Below, one piece after another: positions 3,427 through 17,324 of a stretch of 40,311 nucleotides of DNA (its first letter is position 1; each line of letters begins with the position of its first letter). Origin of the DNA: Bartonella bilalgolemi (lineage in GTDB: Bacteria; Pseudomonadota; Alphaproteobacteria; Rhizobiales; Rhizobiaceae); the NCBI RefSeq assembly GCF_023500045.1, contig NZ_JAMCOF010000001.1, positions 269,161 to 309,471 on the forward strand, given 5' to 3'. Both the position numbers and the translations under genes were made by a program. A model generated the notes under the pieces. The model ran no database searches. It saw nothing but the letters and a program-made list of their open reading frames with translations, and was not told the origin of the DNA.

Positions 3427-3634
3427 ATGAAGACCAAAATAAAAATATTGGGTTTGATTGTTAGAAGTACACGCAAAAAACAAGGATTAACGCAAAAGCA
3501 ATTAGCCGCTACATTAGGGGTTTGGTATACGATTTATCCGTGATTTAGAAAAAGAATCTTGTCAAATTGGAAAAGCCATACATGTGCTTGCAATGCTAGG
3601 TCTTGACATTAAAATTGGAAATGAAAAATTATGA
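3427..3634 (+). pseudogene. hipB: hipB-like antitoxin, frameshifted
   Basis: An XRE-family (helix-turn-helix) antitoxin that would neutralise HipA and repress its operon. The reading frame from ATG 3427 (alternatives 3424, 3418) gives GLIVRSTRKKQGLTQKQLAA, a typical recognition helix region, and then runs into TGA at 3541. Removing one base in gggtttgg near 3522-3528 restores the continuation VGIRFIRDLEKE, and the frame then runs to TGA at 3632-3634. The restored stop overlaps the hipA ATG as ATGA, the usual coupled hipBA arrangement. The restored length of about 69 residues is normal for small HipB proteins. A sequencing error is the main alternative, but the truncated hipA supports genuine decay. 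Confidence 0.8.
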
Positions 3635-4086
3635 CCCGCACACTTGATGTTTATTTGCATACAAAACGCATCGGTCAATTGCATCAAGAAAACAGTGGAG
3701 ATCTCATTTTTCTCTACGATAGCGACTATTTGCAACAAGACTTACAAGGTATTTCTGTCTCTCTTCCTCCACGTGTTGAAGCTTATAAAGGTCAACCAGT
3801 AAAAGCTTTTTTTTCTGGTCTCTTACCTGATGAAAGTGTAAGACAGCGTCTAGCAACTTACTTAGGTCTTTCTGAACAAAATTCTTTTGCCTTACTTAAA
3901 GTTGTTGGTGGAGATTGTGCTGGAACTCTCGCTTTATATCCACATGGACAAGTTCCAAATTTGCGACAAGTTCCAAATTTGCGACAAGTTCCAAATTTGC
4001 GACAAGTTCCAAATTTGCCAACTGATGATATCAAAAACCTTTATGCCTCTCGGCAGTTTCAAAAACATATGCCGAAGTATGTTTGA
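3631..4086 (+). pseudogene. hipA: hipA-like kinase toxin, truncated to its N-terminal domain
   Basis: HipA toxins are serine/threonine kinases of about 400-440 residues. Here only 151 residues remain. The N-terminal subdomain is recognisable (LDVYLHTKRIGQL, ISVSLPP, FFSGLLPDESVRQRLA, LLKVVGGDCAGTLALYP). The kinase core that follows in the family is missing. After the N-terminal domain come four copies of QVPNLR and a short unrelated tail ending at TGA 4084-4086. Catalytic activity is therefore not expected. It follows the frameshifted hipB with an ATGA overlap. Confidence 0.85.
3949..4020 (+). repeat. 18-bp in-frame tandem repeat in hipA remnant (4 copies)
   Basis: The unit caagttccaaatttgcga is repeated at 3949, 3967, 3985 and 4003, the last copy with one change (gcca). 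It encodes QVPNLR. It lies exactly where the family sequence normally passes from the N-terminal domain to the kinase core, so expansion here probably accompanied the loss of function. Confidence 0.95.
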
Positions 4087-10638: not shown

Positions 10639-13230
10639 ATGAATTTGGAAAAATATAGCGAACGGCTTCAAGGTTTTTTACAAGCAGCGCAAAGCAGTGC
10701 TCTTTCTTCTGATCATCAACAATTTATGCCTGAACATTTCTTGAAAGTGCTTTTAGAAGATAGTCAAGGGTTGGCAGTTTCTTTAATCCAAAAGGCAGGA
10801 GGCAATTTGCCGGCTATTCAAAAAGAGCTCAAAGAAGCTCTCGATGCTTTGCCAAAAGTACAAGGCGGAAATGGACAGCTCTATATGTCTCAGCCTTTAG
10901 CAAAAGTTTTTACAAAAGCAGAAGAAATCGCCCAAAAAGAAGGTGATCAATTTGTAACAGTAGAGCGTGCTCTACAAGCTTTGCTCCTCGAAAAAAATGC
11001 AAAAACAGCCGATATTTTGGCAACAGGAGGAGTAACAGCTCAGGCTCTTGATCAAGCCATCAAGACAATGCGAAAAGGAAAGGTGGCAACAAGTCGTCAT
11101 GCTGAAAGCCAATATGAAGCATTGGAAAAATATGCACGTGATTTGACAAAAGAAGCACGAGAGGGAAAACTCGATCCTGTCATTGGACGAGAAGAAGAAA
11201 TTAGAAGAACTGTTCAAGTTTTATCGCGACGGACCAAAAATAATCCCGTGTTAATAGGAGAACCAGGAGTTGGAAAGACCGCTATTGTTGAAGGGTTAGC
11301 GCTCCGCATTGTCAATGGTGATGTTCCAGAAACATTGCGGGATAAACAACTCTATGCCCTCGATATGGGAGCGCTTATCGCCGGGGCAAAATATCGAGGC
11401 GAGTTTGAAGAGCGTTTGAAAGCTGTGCTCACAGACATTCAAGCCGAAAATGGACAAATTATTCTTTTCATTGATGAATTGCATAATCTCGTAGGAGCCG
11501 GGAAATCGGATGGGCCTATGGATGCTTCCAATTTGCTCAAACCCGCTCTTGCTCGCGGTGAGCTTCATTGTGTGGGAGCAACAACGCTCGATGAATATCG
11601 AAAATACGTCGAAAAAGATGCCGCTTTAGCACGACGTTTTCAACCTGTCTTTGTTCCTGAGCCAACTGTAGAGGACAGTATCTCTATCTTGCGCGGAATC
11701 AAAGAAAAATACGAACAACATCACAAAGTGCGCTTGGCCGATAGTGCTTTGATTGCTGCTGCACGATTGTCTCATCGCTATATTGCAGATCGTTTTTTGC
11801 CCGATAAAGCAATCGATTTGATCGATGAAGCAGCCGCACGTTTGAGAATGCAGGTCGATTCAAAACCAGAAGAACTTGATGCAATCGATCGACGTATCAT
11901 GCAGTTGAAAATCGAACAGGAAGCTTTAAAAACAGAAGTCGATCCCGCAGCAAAAGAACGCTTGAAAATCGTTCAAGCTGAACTCGAAACATTGGAAAAA
12001 AACTCAGCAGAAATGACACAAGCTTGGCAGGCCGAAAAACAAAAATTAGGTTATGCTGCTGATCTGAAAAGACAACTCGAAGAAGCACGAAATGCTTTGG
12101 CTATTGCACAACGAAATGGACAGTTTCAACGCGCTGGTGAACTCGCCTATAGTGTCATCCCTGAACTCGAAAAACAACTCAATGTTGCCGAAAATGATGA
12201 CCAAAAAAATAATCTCGTCGAAGAAATCGTTACGGCCGAACATATTGCACAAATCGTTTCACGATGGACAGGAATCCCTGTCGATCGAATGCTCGAAGGT
12301 GAACGAGAAAAATTATTACGCATGGAAGACGAAATCGGAAAACGAGTAGTAGGTCAGGCTGAAGCTGTCCATGCTATTGCACGCGCTGTACGACGCGCAC
12401 GCGCTGGATTGCAAGATCCTCATCGTCCTATCGGGTCTTTTATGTTCTTAGGGCCAACAGGTGTGGGAAAAACTGAACTCACAAAAGCACTCGCTGCTTT
12501 TCTGTTTCAAGATGCTCAGGCTATGTTGCGGATTGATATGTCCGAATATATGGAAAAACATGCTGGAGCACGCTTGATCGGTGCCCCCCCAGGATATATT
12601 GGATATGAAGAGGGAGGTCTTCTCACTGAAGCTGTCAGACGAAGACCCTACCAGGTTATTCTCTTTGACGAAATTGAAAAAGCGCATCCCGATATTTTTA
12701 ATCTGCTTCTTCAAGTGCTTGATGAAGGGCGCTTGACAGATAGTCAAGGACGAACCGTCGATTTTCGAAATACCGTTCTCATTATGACTTCTAATCTCGG
12801 CGCTGAAATTTTGACCGCATTGCCAGAAGGGCAAATAACACATCAAGCAAGAGATGAAGTGATGCAAGTAGTAAAAGCTGCTTTCCGACCAGAATTTCTT
12901 AATCGCGTCGATGAGATTATTCTCTTTCAAAGATTACAGCGGAAAGATATCGAAGCAATCGTCGATCTTCAAATCCAACACTTACAAAATTTACTGAGTG
13001 AACGCAAAATTACCTTGCAGATCACACCAGAAGCGCGAACATTGCTTGCCCATAAAGGCTATGATCCCCTCTATGGGGCGCGGCCGTTAAAACGAATGAT
13101 GCAAAGAGAAATTCAAGATCCCCTCGCGGAAAGCATTTTAAAGGGGACAATTCATGACAACACAATCGTGACAATTACAAAAGAAGGAGAACAATTGATT
13201 TTTTCCTCTGAAACAGAAAATGAAAAATAA
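10639..13230 (+). CDS. clpB: ClpB disaggregase
   Basis: Hexameric AAA+ chaperone that rescues aggregated proteins with DnaK. Domains in order: N-terminal Clp repeat domain (about 1-150), NBD1 with Walker A GEPGVGKT at residues 207-214 and Walker [10 protein letters not shown], the coiled-coil middle domain (about 400-530), and NBD2. NBD2 has Walker A GPTGVGKT at 605-612, Walker [14 protein letters not shown] and arginine-finger region [11 protein letters not shown]. The C-terminal domain includes YGARPLKR. The 863-residue length is normal. The ribosome binding site is weak (aaagagaaagaaaaaa). It ends about 180 bases before the first long inverted repeat of the phage region, so it marks the conserved left flank of the GTA locus. 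Confidence 0.98.
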
Positions 13231-13407
13231 ACACTTGAAAGGGGAAATGACAGAGAAATCAAATAAAACTTGACAAGGTGAATCTCAATAGCTATCATAG
13301 AGACATAATCAGAATTTCGTGTTTATTTAAGTGTTCCATGTTGGTTGTATGAAATCAGCAGAGGTTTTTTTGCGGGTTTATAATTTCTTCTGACAATTTA
13401 AGCTGAT

Positions 13408-13863
13408 TAAAGGATTCCATTGGACAGTGGGAGGTTTTCTTCATTCTTTTTAGAAAAGAAGAGGCTTCTGCGTGTTGTTCGTTATTGTTTGTAGGGATTT
13501 ATGGGTCGTGTCGGAACTAAAGCATGGATGATTGAGGCTCTTGCTTCATTTTTCTGTTGAGGAGCAGAGCCATAATTTGAAGAGATTGTGCTGTTTCGGA
13601 TGTTTCCTTTTTTGTATACAAAACTTTAAAATTTGTTGAAAAAAGCGTTTTGGTTATTCGCTATCATCATTTAATTTAATGCATGATCTCTTCAAATTAT
13701 GGCTCTGCTCCTCAATGCGAAGCAAGAGCCTCAATCATCCATGCTTTAGTTCCGACACGACCCATAAATTTCTACAAACAATAACGAACAACACGCAGAA
13801 GCCCCAAGGTATTTTAAAAAACAGAAAGAAAATCTCCCATTGTCCTATGGCCTTCTTTAAAGA
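13408..13863. repeat. Long inverted repeat 1 (arms about 178 nt, spacer 100 nt)
   Basis: The left arm (13408-13585) is matched by the reverse complement of the right arm (13686-13863). Well-conserved segments include GGAACTAAAGCATGGATGAT and GAGCAGAGCCATAATTTGAA. The outermost parts are more diverged but still align (for example CCATTGGACAGTGGGAG with CCATAGGACAATGGGAG). A transcript across it would form a very long hairpin. No transposase or complete gene lies within it. Confidence 0.9.
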
Positions 13864-14153
13864 AAAAACAATTTTTTCATGCACAAGGCAAATTTTCTTC
13901 TCTTAAGAACAATCTTCGCCTCATAAAACAAGTCTGCTTTTCTTAAGACAAAGCTCTGTTCTATTGGCATCTTCTGTCATATTGAACTTTATGAAAAGGC
14001 TAAAATCTGTTTAATGACTCTTTTTCCTGCTTAGCTTCTGCAGAGCAACACAATTTTCCACACTGCCTTCCAGGATATTGAGGAAGTGATGGCCTATGAT
14101 GAAAACGTTTTTTCAACCGATTAAGGTTTTGCATATGAATAAGGGACTATCTG

Positions 14154-14489
14154 ATGATACAGGATAATTCTCTCTATTTGAAGGGAAGAGGCCGACCAAA
14201 AGGAACGGTGAATAAGACAACAAAGATTTTCAAAAAAGCGCTTCTTACCGCTGCTGAACAGGCGGGTAATCAGTATGGTCATGATGGATTGGTCTCTTAT
14301 CTTTGTTATCATGCGATCAATAATCCTGTTCCTTTCTTTTCTTTGTTAGCAAAAGTTTTGCCTTTGCACGTGACAGGAGAAGATGAGGGAAAGACTAAGG
14401 TCGTTTCGCGTGTTGAGATTGTACCGATGGTTCCTAATGAGATAATGAGTGATAAGCTTTATGAAGGTTCTCATGAGAATGAGACATAA
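14154..14489 (+). CDS. Small terminase-like phage protein
   Basis: A 111-residue protein. The N terminus GRGRPKGTVNKTTKIFKKAL is the DNA-binding-like start seen in many small phage proteins that precede the large terminase. The middle (LVSYLCYHAINNPVPFFSLLAKVLPL) resembles the same group. Small terminase subunits recognise DNA for packaging. The large terminase is 1.5 kb downstream, an unusually wide separation filled by two inverted repeats. The ribosome binding site aagggac lies upstream of the ATG. A 27-base segment of its 3' end (14412-14438) recurs with two mismatches at 15244-15270, so part of the gene has been copied. Confidence 0.6.
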   Translation: MIQDNSLYLKGRGRPKGTVNKTTKIFKKALLTAAEQAGNQYGHDGLVSYLCYHAINNPVPFFSLLAKVLPLHVTGEDEGKTKVVSRVEIVPMVPNEIMSDKLYEGSHENET

Positions 14490-14534
14490 AGATATGAGAG
14501 AAGGATTATTCAAAACGCTGTAAGACAATATTTT

Positions 14535-15060
14535 GGCATAATCAATTGCAGTAATCGAAGATGGTATAAGTATTAATGTTAACAGAAAAAGCGAGACGTT
14601 TGACAAAAAGAGCAAAAAGCTAATGAAAAAGCCGAAGAAGAATTCAACATTTAATGAAAGACGAAACTAAAAATAATGCAAAGATTATCTAAACCATTCT
14701 CTTTTAATAATTTTGGGAGAAGTGAATGAAAATTCTTCTCTTTAGAGGATGGCTATGAGATGCTCTGTGTTTTGATCCTTTGGATATGTGTTAAAAAAAG
14801 ATTTTCATCTCTGGACAGAATGAATGCATTAATCAAAATGAGTAAAAGAGCGCAGAGAGTTTTTCGAGAGACCATAAACGAATTCTCTATTTAGAGAATG
14901 GCTTAGGTAATTTTTGCGTTGTTTTTAGTTTAGTCTTTCATTGAATGTTGTACCATTGGCTTACTTTTTCATTGGCTTTCAGTTGTTGTGGCCGGTATCC
15001 TTTCTTTTCCTTCTGCCACTAATATTGATACCGTCTTCGATTACTGCATCTGATTATGCC
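14535..15060. repeat. Long inverted repeat 2 (arms 168 nt, spacer 190 nt)
   Basis: The left arm (14535-14702) pairs with the right arm (14893-15060). Conserved pieces include GGCATAATCA, GCAGTAATCGAAGA, CATTxAATGAAAGAC and an inner end of the form ATTACCTAAGCCATTCTCT in the right arm (ATTATCTAAACCATTCTCT in the left). Indels and substitutions are spread along the arms, so they are not recent perfect copies. No open frame spans it. Confidence 0.9.
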
Positions 15061-15243
15061 AGCACCACTATGGAGGTTTTAATTTTATCTTCCTGATTGT
15101 GTTGAGCAATGGAATTATCCTCTTAAGAGTGGCTTTTTTCCATGCTATAGAGGATTTATGGATTGATAGTTGTAAAGACAGGGAGGGGGTCTAGCACTGT
15201 TTTTTTTGTGTAATCTATCCTTTTTGTAAGAGGATCGAGCTTC

Positions 15244-15270
15244 GTTGAGATTGTATCGATGGTTTCTAAT
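15244..15270 (+). pseudogene. Copied fragment of the small-terminase-like gene
   Basis: These 27 bases match 14412-14438, inside the 3' part of the small-terminase-like gene, with two substitutions. They still read VEIVSMVSN in one frame (VEIVPMVPN in the gene). The surrounding sequence does not form a gene. This indicates that a related coding segment once stood here or was duplicated. Confidence 0.7.
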
Positions 15271-15287
15271 ATCGGTAAATCTAAATA

Positions 15288-15773
15288 ATCAAATAACATC
15301 TTGGACACATCGGGAGTATTTTGACACACTCAATCGTTCCTTACAAAAACAATGATAAACGCAAGCTGAAGGAGCAGATAAAAAATAAAGAACGCAAGCA
15401 AATGGAAAGCAAACAGCTGATAAATGACGATTTAAAAATTACCTAAGCCATACTCTATTCCCTGATTTTTAAAGAATATATGAAATTCTTTTTTTCAGTG
15501 ATTGATGAAGGTGGTGTATGTTTCAGGTCTTTTATGCTTGAATATATCCATAAGAAACGCATAAATGCAAAATTTTTTAAAAAACCGTGAGTGATTTATA
15601 TTTTAGGGTATGGCTTAGGTAATTTTTAAATCGTCATTTATCAGCTGTTTGCTTTCCATTTGCTTGCGTTCTTTATTTTTTATCTGCTTCTTCAGCTTGC
15701 GTTTATCATTGTTTTTGTAAGGAACGATTGAGTGTGTCAAAATACTTCCGATGTGTCCAAGATGTTATTTGAT
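15288..15773. repeat. Long inverted repeat 3 (arms 167 nt, spacer 152 nt)
   Basis: The left arm (15288-15454) pairs with the right arm (15607-15773) at very high identity, with only a few mismatches (for example cgggagtattt versus cggaagtattt). The inner ends again carry ATTACCTAAGCCATAC. The left arm is open for about 50 codons on the plus strand, ending NDDLKIT and stop, and is rich in Lys/Glu/Gln. It has no start codon near its beginning and may be the 3' end of a lost gene. The right arm ends about 220 bases before the large terminase. Confidence 0.95.
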
Positions 15774-15995
15774 CTTAACTCTTTGTGTTAAGGAATGAAA
15801 TTTTACTCTTAAGGGTAACTATTATTATGAATGATGTTTTATGATTTTTGGATTAAGAGTCTTATGGATAAGGATTTCGCAGAGAGCAGATATCACTTTT
15901 TGAAAAGTGTACTCTTTGAAGAGGATCATAGAGTGTTCCATAATGAGAGAGATTTCTGTCGGTTAACAAGGGTTTATCAAGAATGAGAGTGCACA

Positions 15996-17324
15996 ATGAC
16001 AACCGCTCAGATTGCCTTGATTCCAAAACTCATTCCTATTTTTACCGGAAAAGCTGATGTTCGTGCTGCTTGGGGAGGAAGGGGATCAGGAAAAACACGC
16101 TCCTTTGCTTTGATGACAGCTGTGATCGGTTATCATCACGGAAAAGCTGGAGAACGAGGTATTATCCTCTGTGCGAGGCAATTCCAAAATTCATTGGCTG
16201 AAAGTTCTCTCGAAGAAATTAAACGTGCTATCGAATCCTATTCCTTTTTAAGCGACTATTATGAAATTGGCGATAAATATATTAGATCAAAAGATGGCTG
16301 TATCGTATATGCTTTTGCTGGTCTTGACCGCAATATTGCTAGCGTTAAATCTATGGGGCGTATTCTGCTCTGTTGGGTGGATGAGGCAGAACCTGTGACC
16401 GATGCCGCTTGGCAAGTCTTGATTCCAACGCTAAGAGAAGAGGGAAAAGAGTGGCATTCCGAGTTATGGGTGACATGGAACCCCTGCCGAGAAAATGCTG
16501 CCGTTGAAAAACGATTCCGTTTTACCAAGGATCCTAATATCAAAGGCGTTGAAATTAATTGGCGTGATAATCCAAAATTTCCTGCAAAACTTAATCGCGA
16601 TCGAACAGCTGATTTAGAACAAAGACCTGAACAATATCAACATATTTGGGAAGGGGAGTATCTGCAGGCAATGCAAGGGGCTTATTACCAAAGATTGCTG
16701 CTTGAAGCAGAACAAGAAGGGCGTATTACTATAGTGCCACGTGATCCTCTGATTCAGGTTAAAATCTTTTGGGATATCGGTGGAACGGGCGCTAAAGCTG
16801 ATGCAACGGCTCTATGGGTAGCTCAATTTGTTGGACGCGAGATTCGTGTTCTCGATTATTATGAAGCACAAGGACAACCCTTGTCAGAGCATATCGGCTG
16901 GATCTGTCACAAAGGTTATGAAAAGGCACTGATGGTTTTGCCCCATGATGGCGCTACAAAAGATCGTGTTTATAATGTCAGTTTTGAAAGTGCACTCCAA
17001 CAGGCTGGTTTTCGTACCCAAATTATTCCTAATCAAGGTGTCGGTGCTGTCAAAATGCGCATCGAAGCTGTAAGACGATTATTCCCCGCTATATGGTTTA
17101 ATCGAGAAACAACAATGGCTGGGCGAAAAGCCCTTGCCTGGTATCACGAAAAACGCGATGAACAACGTAATATCGGTTTGGGAGCTGAACACGATTGGGC
17201 AAGTCATGGGGCCGATAGCTTTGGACTGTTATGCGTGGCCTATGAACAACCCAGTGCTCAAAAAAAACGAGATATTTATCGGTCGCGTTCTTCTTCTTCT
17301 ACAACATCATGGATGGCTTTTTAA
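15996..17324 (+). CDS. Phage/GTA large terminase subunit
   Basis: ATP-driven DNA packaging motor with an endonuclease domain, docking on the portal. The Walker A is GGRGSGKT at residues 27-34 and the Walker B ILLCWVDEAE has D129/E130. The coupling/adenine region is in between. The C-terminal RNase H-like nuclease shows FWDIGGTGAKADATALW with D260 and D269, and later acidic residues in LPHDGATKD and HDWASHGADS. At 442 residues it is in the usual range. Its stop overlaps the portal start by one base (TAATG). The cluster order fits a podovirus-like element and the BaGTA. Confidence 0.93.
   Translation: MTTAQIALIPKLIPIFTGKADVRAAWGGRGSGKTRSFALMTAVIGYHHGKAGERGIILCARQFQNSLAESSLEEIKRAIESYSFLSDYYEIGDKYIRSKDGCIVYAFAGLDRNIASVKSMGRILLCWVDEAEPVTDAAWQVLIPTLREEGKEWHSELWVTWNPCRENAAVEKRFRFTKDPNIKGVEINWRDNPKFPAKLNRDRTADLEQRPEQYQHIWEGEYLQAMQGAYYQRLLLEAEQEGRITIVPRDPLIQVKIFWDIGGTGAKADATALWVAQFVGREIRVLDYYEAQGQPLSEHIGWICHKGYEKALMVLPHDGATKDRVYNVSFESALQQAGFRTQIIPNQGVGAVKMRIEAVRRLFPAIWFNRETTMAGRKALAWYHEKRDEQRNIGLGAEHDWASHGADSFGLLCVAYEQPSAQKKRDIYRSRSSSSTTSWMAF

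Follow-up and report, generated by a model that had tools for sequence, protein, structure and literature searches.

How three large inverted repeats came to lie in a row around a single small gene of a phage-derived particle cluster, and whether they do anything for the cell that carries them, is the question raised by this stretch of Bartonella bilalgolemi DNA (40,311 nt, hereafter the window). The locus that holds the repeats is the Bartonella GTA (BaGTA), as terL and the genes for a P22-like portal and a capsid were found in the Bartonella cluster by matches to phage families. By identity, the nearest relatives of the window terL are those of Bartonella sp. AR15-3 (98%), B. rochalimae (96%) and B. 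clarridgeiae (95%). The name terS is used for the preceding gene because it sits just before terL; residues 5-95 of its product match phrog_11043, a family of unknown function, and the protein is without a Pfam match. The features of the interval are collected in Table 1. Further upstream, the window contains a 6S RNA gene on the minus strand (1685-1845; Rfam RF00013, 71.1 bits) and an ORF with a HipA N-terminal domain (3631-4086).

Table 1. Features of the interval from the clpB-type gene to terL (positions in the window; IR, inverted repeat).
Feature	Position	Strand	Remarks
clpB-type chaperone gene, upstream boundary of the interval	10639..13230	+	Pfam ClpB_D2-small, AAA_2, Clp_N
Conserved promoter-like sequence TTGACA-17 nt-TATCAT	13270..13298	+	11/12 consensus matches
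IR1 left arm	13407..13586	+	
Inverted copy of the terS start region (14102-14173), in/beside the IR1 loop	13581..13651	-	55/75 aligned columns
IR1 right arm	13686..13860	+	
terS-like gene, 111 aa	14154..14489	+	named from its position before terL
27-nt piece of the terS 3' end, copied at 15244-15270	14412..14438	+	
IR2 left arm	14534..14702	+	
IR2 right arm	14893..15061	+	
Flank after IR2	15062..15243	+	in part similar to the IR3-terL flank and to B. clarridgeiae DNA preceding terS
Copy of the terS 3' end	15244..15270	+	93% identical to 14412-14438
IR3 left arm	15288..15457	+	
IR3 right arm	15604..15773	+	
Flank between IR3 and terL	15774..15995	+	
terL, large terminase subunit	15996..17324	+	Pfam Terminase_3 E 4.4e-20; phrog_3717

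A first-pass annotation had described three foldback structures within 13408-15773 that chance could not produce, and both parts of this statement held. Watson-Crick pairs are formed at 154 of 174 aligned positions in IR1 (with seven additional gap columns), at 128 of 167 in IR2 (four gap columns) and at 167 of 170 in IR3, in which all three mismatches are G-U. An inverted repeat of at least 60 nt was obtained in none of 200 dinucleotide shuffles of 13330-15995. Moreover, similar searches revealed no other inverted repeat of this kind in the rest of the window or in 400 kb of sampled genome (13 stretches of the same contig and seven of AR15-3), i.e., three such repeats in 2.4 kb compare with none in 400 kb. 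The location of the terS-like gene between IR1 and IR2 and the second copy of the 27-nt terS piece ahead of IR3 were likewise described correctly. The Lys/Glu-rich open stretch noted in the left arm of IR3 is present but does not appear to encode protein: across 36 codons, the synonymous to nonsynonymous differences amount to 1:12, 4:11 and 3:13 in three species comparisons, and a coding role was rejected because the codon differences are mostly nonsynonymous. Phage records searched with the interval gave no match.

The distribution of the repeats was analyzed in 41 loci, comprising the window and loci from 40 of the 54 further genomes that matched at the DNA level; four of the 14 genomes left were fetched later and stand outside this main comparison, and the loci L040 and L058 were omitted from one upstream alignment. 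Large inverted repeats in the terS-terL gap are present in three of the 41 loci, namely the window, AR15-3 and B. rochalimae. The window and AR15-3 are alike in having two repeats in the gap and one upstream of terS. B. rochalimae carries a single repeat in the gap, which corresponds to IR3, with IR1 and IR2 absent, and the same single repeat is found in a viral-collection record that is 99.3% like B. rochalimae. Conservation beyond a single strain, on which the first-pass annotation had made its proposal depend, is thereby observed, with all three repeats in AR15-3 and IR3 in two B. rochalimae sequences. The arm profiles match loci of lineage 3 only (104 sequences), weak IR1 matches aside; lineage 3 and lineage 4 are names used in the literature. 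Large inverted repeats are absent from B. clarridgeiae and its near relative G042, whose terS-terL gap is only ~50-71 nt, and the repeats are therefore not required for a BaGTA locus.

Among the 39 loci with terL on the contig (L052 and L056 are without it), the terS-terL gap spans 50-1510 nt, values that are approximate as they derive from the ends of tblastn matches. A direct copy of the terS tail lies within this gap in 20 of the 41 loci. In L062, L069 and L044, tandem copies of the terS tail and the gap, up to 99% alike, nearly reach the start of terL. Upstream of terS, a smaller inverted pair at ~430 and ~180 nt is present in 10 loci, a 338-nt imperfect palindrome in one further species (L042), and at least one copy of the smaller upstream inverted element, in some cases weak, in 11 loci compared to none of 20 background stretches. 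In the leader of L043, identical 15-nt units are arrayed ~760-560 nt before terS. None of the 14 loci of other Bartonella inspected for a conserved small gene ahead of terS was found to contain one. Along the cluster, large inverted repeats are almost confined to the clpB-terL interval, with one exception bin at +5500. The motif GAATGGCTTAGGTAATTT gives 15 matches with up to four mismatches in 89,568 nt of clpB-terL sequence vs. four in 383,819 nt outside, its background scan covering one 20-kb stretch. Direct duplications are also seen in gaps elsewhere in the cluster, e.g., in eight of 39-40 loci ~3-3.5 kb after the start of terL, which weakens the notion of a rearrangement hotspot specific for terS.

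More distant terminase loci were compared, too. The nearest ORF upstream of terL, presumably terS, overlaps it by 4-32 nt in 19 relatives from other bacteria and viral contigs. The genome of B. bilalgolemi itself and that of AR15-3 contain a second terS/terL pair (L245, G000:C35:66631-67953, and L246, G041:C1:541100-542422) with a terL that is 72% identical; the two genes overlap by 19 nt, and no BaGTA promoter-like sequence is present within the fetched stretch. In the large-genome Bartonella G044 and G013 (L243, L244), terL is 69% identical and a distant terS-like match lies ~1.3-1.5 kb upstream of it with other ORFs between.

Regarding the origin of the repeats, the suggestion that they are inverted duplications of phage gene ends is supported in part. 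The IR1 loop region contains the terS start in inverted orientation: the reversed alignment matches at 55/75 columns in the window, 61/76 columns with B. rochalimae and 45/55 columns within AR15-3, each reached by none of 300 shuffles, and nhmmer returned E-values of 1.5e-5 in the window and 1.1e-8 in B. rochalimae. The inner arm of IR1 resembles the single-copy B. clarridgeiae sequence just upstream of terS (49/70 and 40/53 columns, 0/300 shuffles), the opposite orientation being equalled by 83 of 300 shuffles. Loop and arm matches, together with their orientations, fit the insertion of an inverted copy, and IR1 most likely arose by an inverted copy of the terS upstream region and the terS start that inserted between that upstream region and terS. 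Such a derivation from adjacent sequence was found for IR1 only, and no source of the IR2 and IR3 arms was found.

For IR2 and IR3, the flanking sequences point to two tandem units, of which the second begins with the 27-nt terS tail. The flank after IR2 aligns to the flank after IR3 over 51/69 columns and to the B. clarridgeiae sequence upstream of terS over 35/44 columns (0/300 shuffles each); the flank after IR3 has no match to the latter (118/300 shuffles as good). The arms of IR2 and IR3 are alike over the inner 23 nt only (22/23), and comparison of the whole IR2 and IR3 arms of AR15-3 gave a match that was equally good in 140 of 300 shuffles. A tandem-duplication origin shared by IR2 and IR3 is thus likely but not proven because the likeness of the arms is limited to these inner 23 nt. 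In B. rochalimae, the equivalents of 14438 (in terS) and 15271 are directly joined and most of IR1 is missing, which looks as if a deletion had occurred between the two 27-nt terS copies.

The way in which the arms change bears on how they are maintained. In an alignment of the IR3 arms of the three species (186 columns), 110 columns keep the same pair throughout, 44 differ from species to species but form a pair in each, and 32 lack a pair in one species or more, many of them beyond the paired part of AR15-3. Insertions and deletions match in both arms, and the arms change together between species, multi-base changes included. The arms pair at 172/175 (IR1), 148/150 (IR2) and 136/142 (IR3) positions in AR15-3 and at 169/172 positions in IR3 of B. 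rochalimae. Between the window and AR15-3, in turn, identity is 75-84% in the arms, 81-89% in the loops, 89-93% in the flanks after IR2 and IR3 and 96% in terL. G-U and A-C mismatches in lineage 3 number 30 and 20 (p 0.20), i.e., there is no significant G-U excess. Two single changes in the right arm of IR3 distinguish the two B. rochalimae sequences: one restores a base pair, the other disrupts one. Because the arms match within but differ between species, outpace the loops and lack a significant G-U excess, DNA-level copying from arm to arm is favored over selected RNA pairing, suggesting that the arms evolve by mutation combined with such copying, which may proceed by replication template switching or gene conversion. 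The smaller inverted pairs of other Bartonella likewise show closer agreement between the arms of one species than across most species, although corresponding arms of sister species can resemble each other even more.

A process of this type is described elsewhere. Template-switch correction of inverted repeats keeps arms complementary by double changes, including multi-base ones (PMC8794818), and in these repeats as in the palindromes of nematomorph mitochondria double changes appear without the need for G-U intermediates (PMC8794818, PMC6649704), as is the case here. The BaGTA repeats are larger, with arms of ~170 nt and loops of ~100-190 nt, three in a row in a bacterial GTA locus; the largest examples mentioned in the parts of those reports available are a 59-bp template-switch pattern (PMC8794818) and a 142-bp nematomorph repeat arm (PMC6649704). 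Crossing-over between arms would sometimes invert the loop, so that the colinear loops, which have one orientation in the window, AR15-3 and B. rochalimae, count against arm copying. However, loop inversion is a frequent but not a required mark of template-switch-corrected repeats.

Upstream of the repeats lies the promoter-like sequence, with the pattern TTGACAAGGT..AATCT.AA...TATCAT followed 5 nt on by a second -10-like hexamer, CATAAT (13304-13309). It could be aligned in all 41 loci, after clpB and 441-6110 nt upstream of terS, and the spacer between the -35 and -10 elements is strongly conserved. With up to one mismatch, the pattern is present in 54 of 71 Bartonella genomes, in two of them twice; the reversed pattern, used as a control in the same 71 genomes, gave no match. 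All 54 belong to the 57 genomes with a BaGTA-type terL (at least 84% identity), and in each the match lies upstream of terS and on its strand. G002 and G007 have the sequence with two mismatches in the fetched loci, and G070, the last of the 57, shows a contig end and a terS fragment at the expected place. In the 14 genomes without a BaGTA-type terL, no match was obtained with up to one mismatch, and in the terL locus of two of these none with up to three. The putative promoter is conserved across the genus and linked to the GTA, which is new here: a search of the open literature on a Bartonella GTA leader, terminator, repeats or palindromes found no description of it, and the accessible portions of the BaGTA papers mention palindromes solely within one gene of the replication region, and neither a promoter nor a leader of the GTA cluster (PMC3610622, PMC6899734). 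The term leader, which the first-pass annotation had applied to all three repeats, is appropriate for IR1, located in an apparently untranslated stretch after the promoter-like sequence; IR2 and IR3 sit between terS and terL. As the promoter-like sequence is conserved upstream, the repeats probably lie within a long untranslated GTA transcript.

This arrangement resembles a known GTA. In the GTA of Caulobacter crescentus, three 150-bp repeats with imperfect inverted repeats follow the first gene and act as a strong terminator, terGTA, which is bypassed with GafZ, a candidate GafZ site lying between the -35 and -10 elements (PMC11150451). Both clusters open with a promoter, or here a promoter-like sequence, and a long, here apparently untranslated, region, and in both the first gene is followed directly by repeats that precede the remaining genes, a likeness in layout that is striking (PMC11150451). 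By analogy, the repeats around terS might be a selected transcription barrier that blocks or stalls RNA polymerase unless an antiterminator is loaded at the promoter, leading to all-or-none expression in few cells. The conserved spacer, where the elements for GafZ, lambda Q and AlpA are said to lie, would suit this, as would the accumulation of repeats in the terS-terL gap, be it as terS-tail copies or, in the three loci, as large inverted repeats. The overlapping gene pairs of the 19 outside relatives and the second terS/terL pairs without such a promoter, in which this gap is missing, point in the same direction. The lambda late promoter has a -10-like pause element, and the second hexamer a few bases after the -10 element resembles it; unlike lambda, the B. 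bilalgolemi genome lacks a Q-type antiterminator (PF06530). Furthermore, intrinsic terminators on the coding strand are not enriched, with 21 vs. 21.0 expected in the leaders and five vs. 9.0 in the gaps, the expectation being derived from one or two shuffles per segment. Rho sites are C-rich, whereas the coding-strand GC skew of the interval is mostly positive, and B. clarridgeiae, a close relative, manages without repeats. The systems also differ in that the Caulobacter cluster starts with the large terminase gene and has GC-rich direct repeats that are a proven terminator (PMC11150451), while BaGTA starts with terS and its repeats are AT-rich, inverted and lineage-specific. A selected barrier is therefore possible, yet we consider it rather unlikely. 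As separate observations, terminator-like sites on the opposite strand of the leaders number 13 vs. 1.5 in shuffles (10/41 loci, e.g., L041, L046, L055 and L057), and in four of the 41 loci (the window at ~13365, L038, L039 and L074) a terminator-like hairpin with a T-run occurs ~54-64 nt into the scanned leader, which might be a promoter-proximal stop.

The other explanations appear less probable. The stems might be selected as long double-stranded RNA, e.g., as RNase III sites that separate the terS from the terL messenger, since the region 15230-16000 has a predicted folding energy of -379.3 kcal/mol compared to a mean of -167.6 for 20 shuffles, pairing is maintained in three species, and G-U exceeds A-C mismatches (78 to 36) in the smaller pairs that other Bartonella carry ahead of terS. 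This excess was rejected as proof of RNA selection, as the T- and G-rich strand predicts a G-U share of 73% and 68% is seen (p 0.25). Moreover, the arms evolve faster than the loops, B. rochalimae does without IR1 and IR2, IR2 of the window has decayed to the pairing given above, and no Rfam family reaches its gathering score in the interval, one sub-threshold match being to a miRNA hairpin with 28.9 bits vs. 70 needed, making a selected RNA improbable. Packaging sites of phages are often located in or near terS, and residual cutting by the packaging enzyme could leave DNA ends whose folding back and copying would yield inverted duplications. Rearrangement on both sides of terS and the copied pieces of both its ends agree with such a break hotspot, but the cut site is hypothetical here and the direct duplications elsewhere in the cluster, such as those downstream of terL, speak against it, so that it is very unlikely. 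Large near-identical arms are finally typical of mobile elements, invertible switches and assembly artefacts. All three are scarcely credible, however: the own genome contains no second copy of IR3 and the arm profiles are restricted to lineage 3 apart from the weak IR1 matches, unlike a MITE- or REP-type element, the uniform loop orientation in three species argues against a phase-variable segment, and independent assemblies have the same layout.

We thus regard it, with moderate confidence, as the best explanation that the three foldbacks are homogenised, non-essential inverted duplications within a long untranslated BaGTA stretch reaching from the promoter-like sequence to terL. In this scheme the inverted insertion next to terS would have given rise to IR1, IR2 and IR3 would reside in two tandem units that each hold a piece of the terS 3' end, and arm-to-arm copying at the DNA level would keep the arms alike. 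The stretch would be transcribed, its transcript would be predicted to fold into very large hairpins, and these may at most act, between terS and the genes that follow, as a non-essential drag or cleavage site. The occurrence of all three repeats at one gene, and of smaller inverted pairs ahead of terS in other Bartonella, hints at something locus-specific that this neutral account does not explain.

As a summary, the repeats are an unusually large, dated case of co-evolving inverted-repeat arms in a bacterial chromosome, and related species display their birth, upkeep, decay and loss. For the biology of the GTA, a wider and rather doubtful possibility is that BaGTA is run throughout the genus by this one promoter, that the transcript has to pass a long, quickly evolving untranslated barrier made of terS-flanking DNA in duplicated and inverted form before terL is reached, that such a repeat barrier with antitermination evolved here independently of Caulobacter, and that arm copying keeps the barrier of lineage 3 intact. 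If a repeat barrier with antitermination were indeed in place, it would explain why few cells use the lethal GTA, and why they do so in an all-or-none manner. The mechanism that turns BaGTA on in a small fraction of cells was called 'yet elusive' in a 2019 review (PMC6899734), and the promoter-like sequence, present at BaGTA loci across the genus, together with the long untranslated stretch that follows it, offers a concrete entry point to this question.
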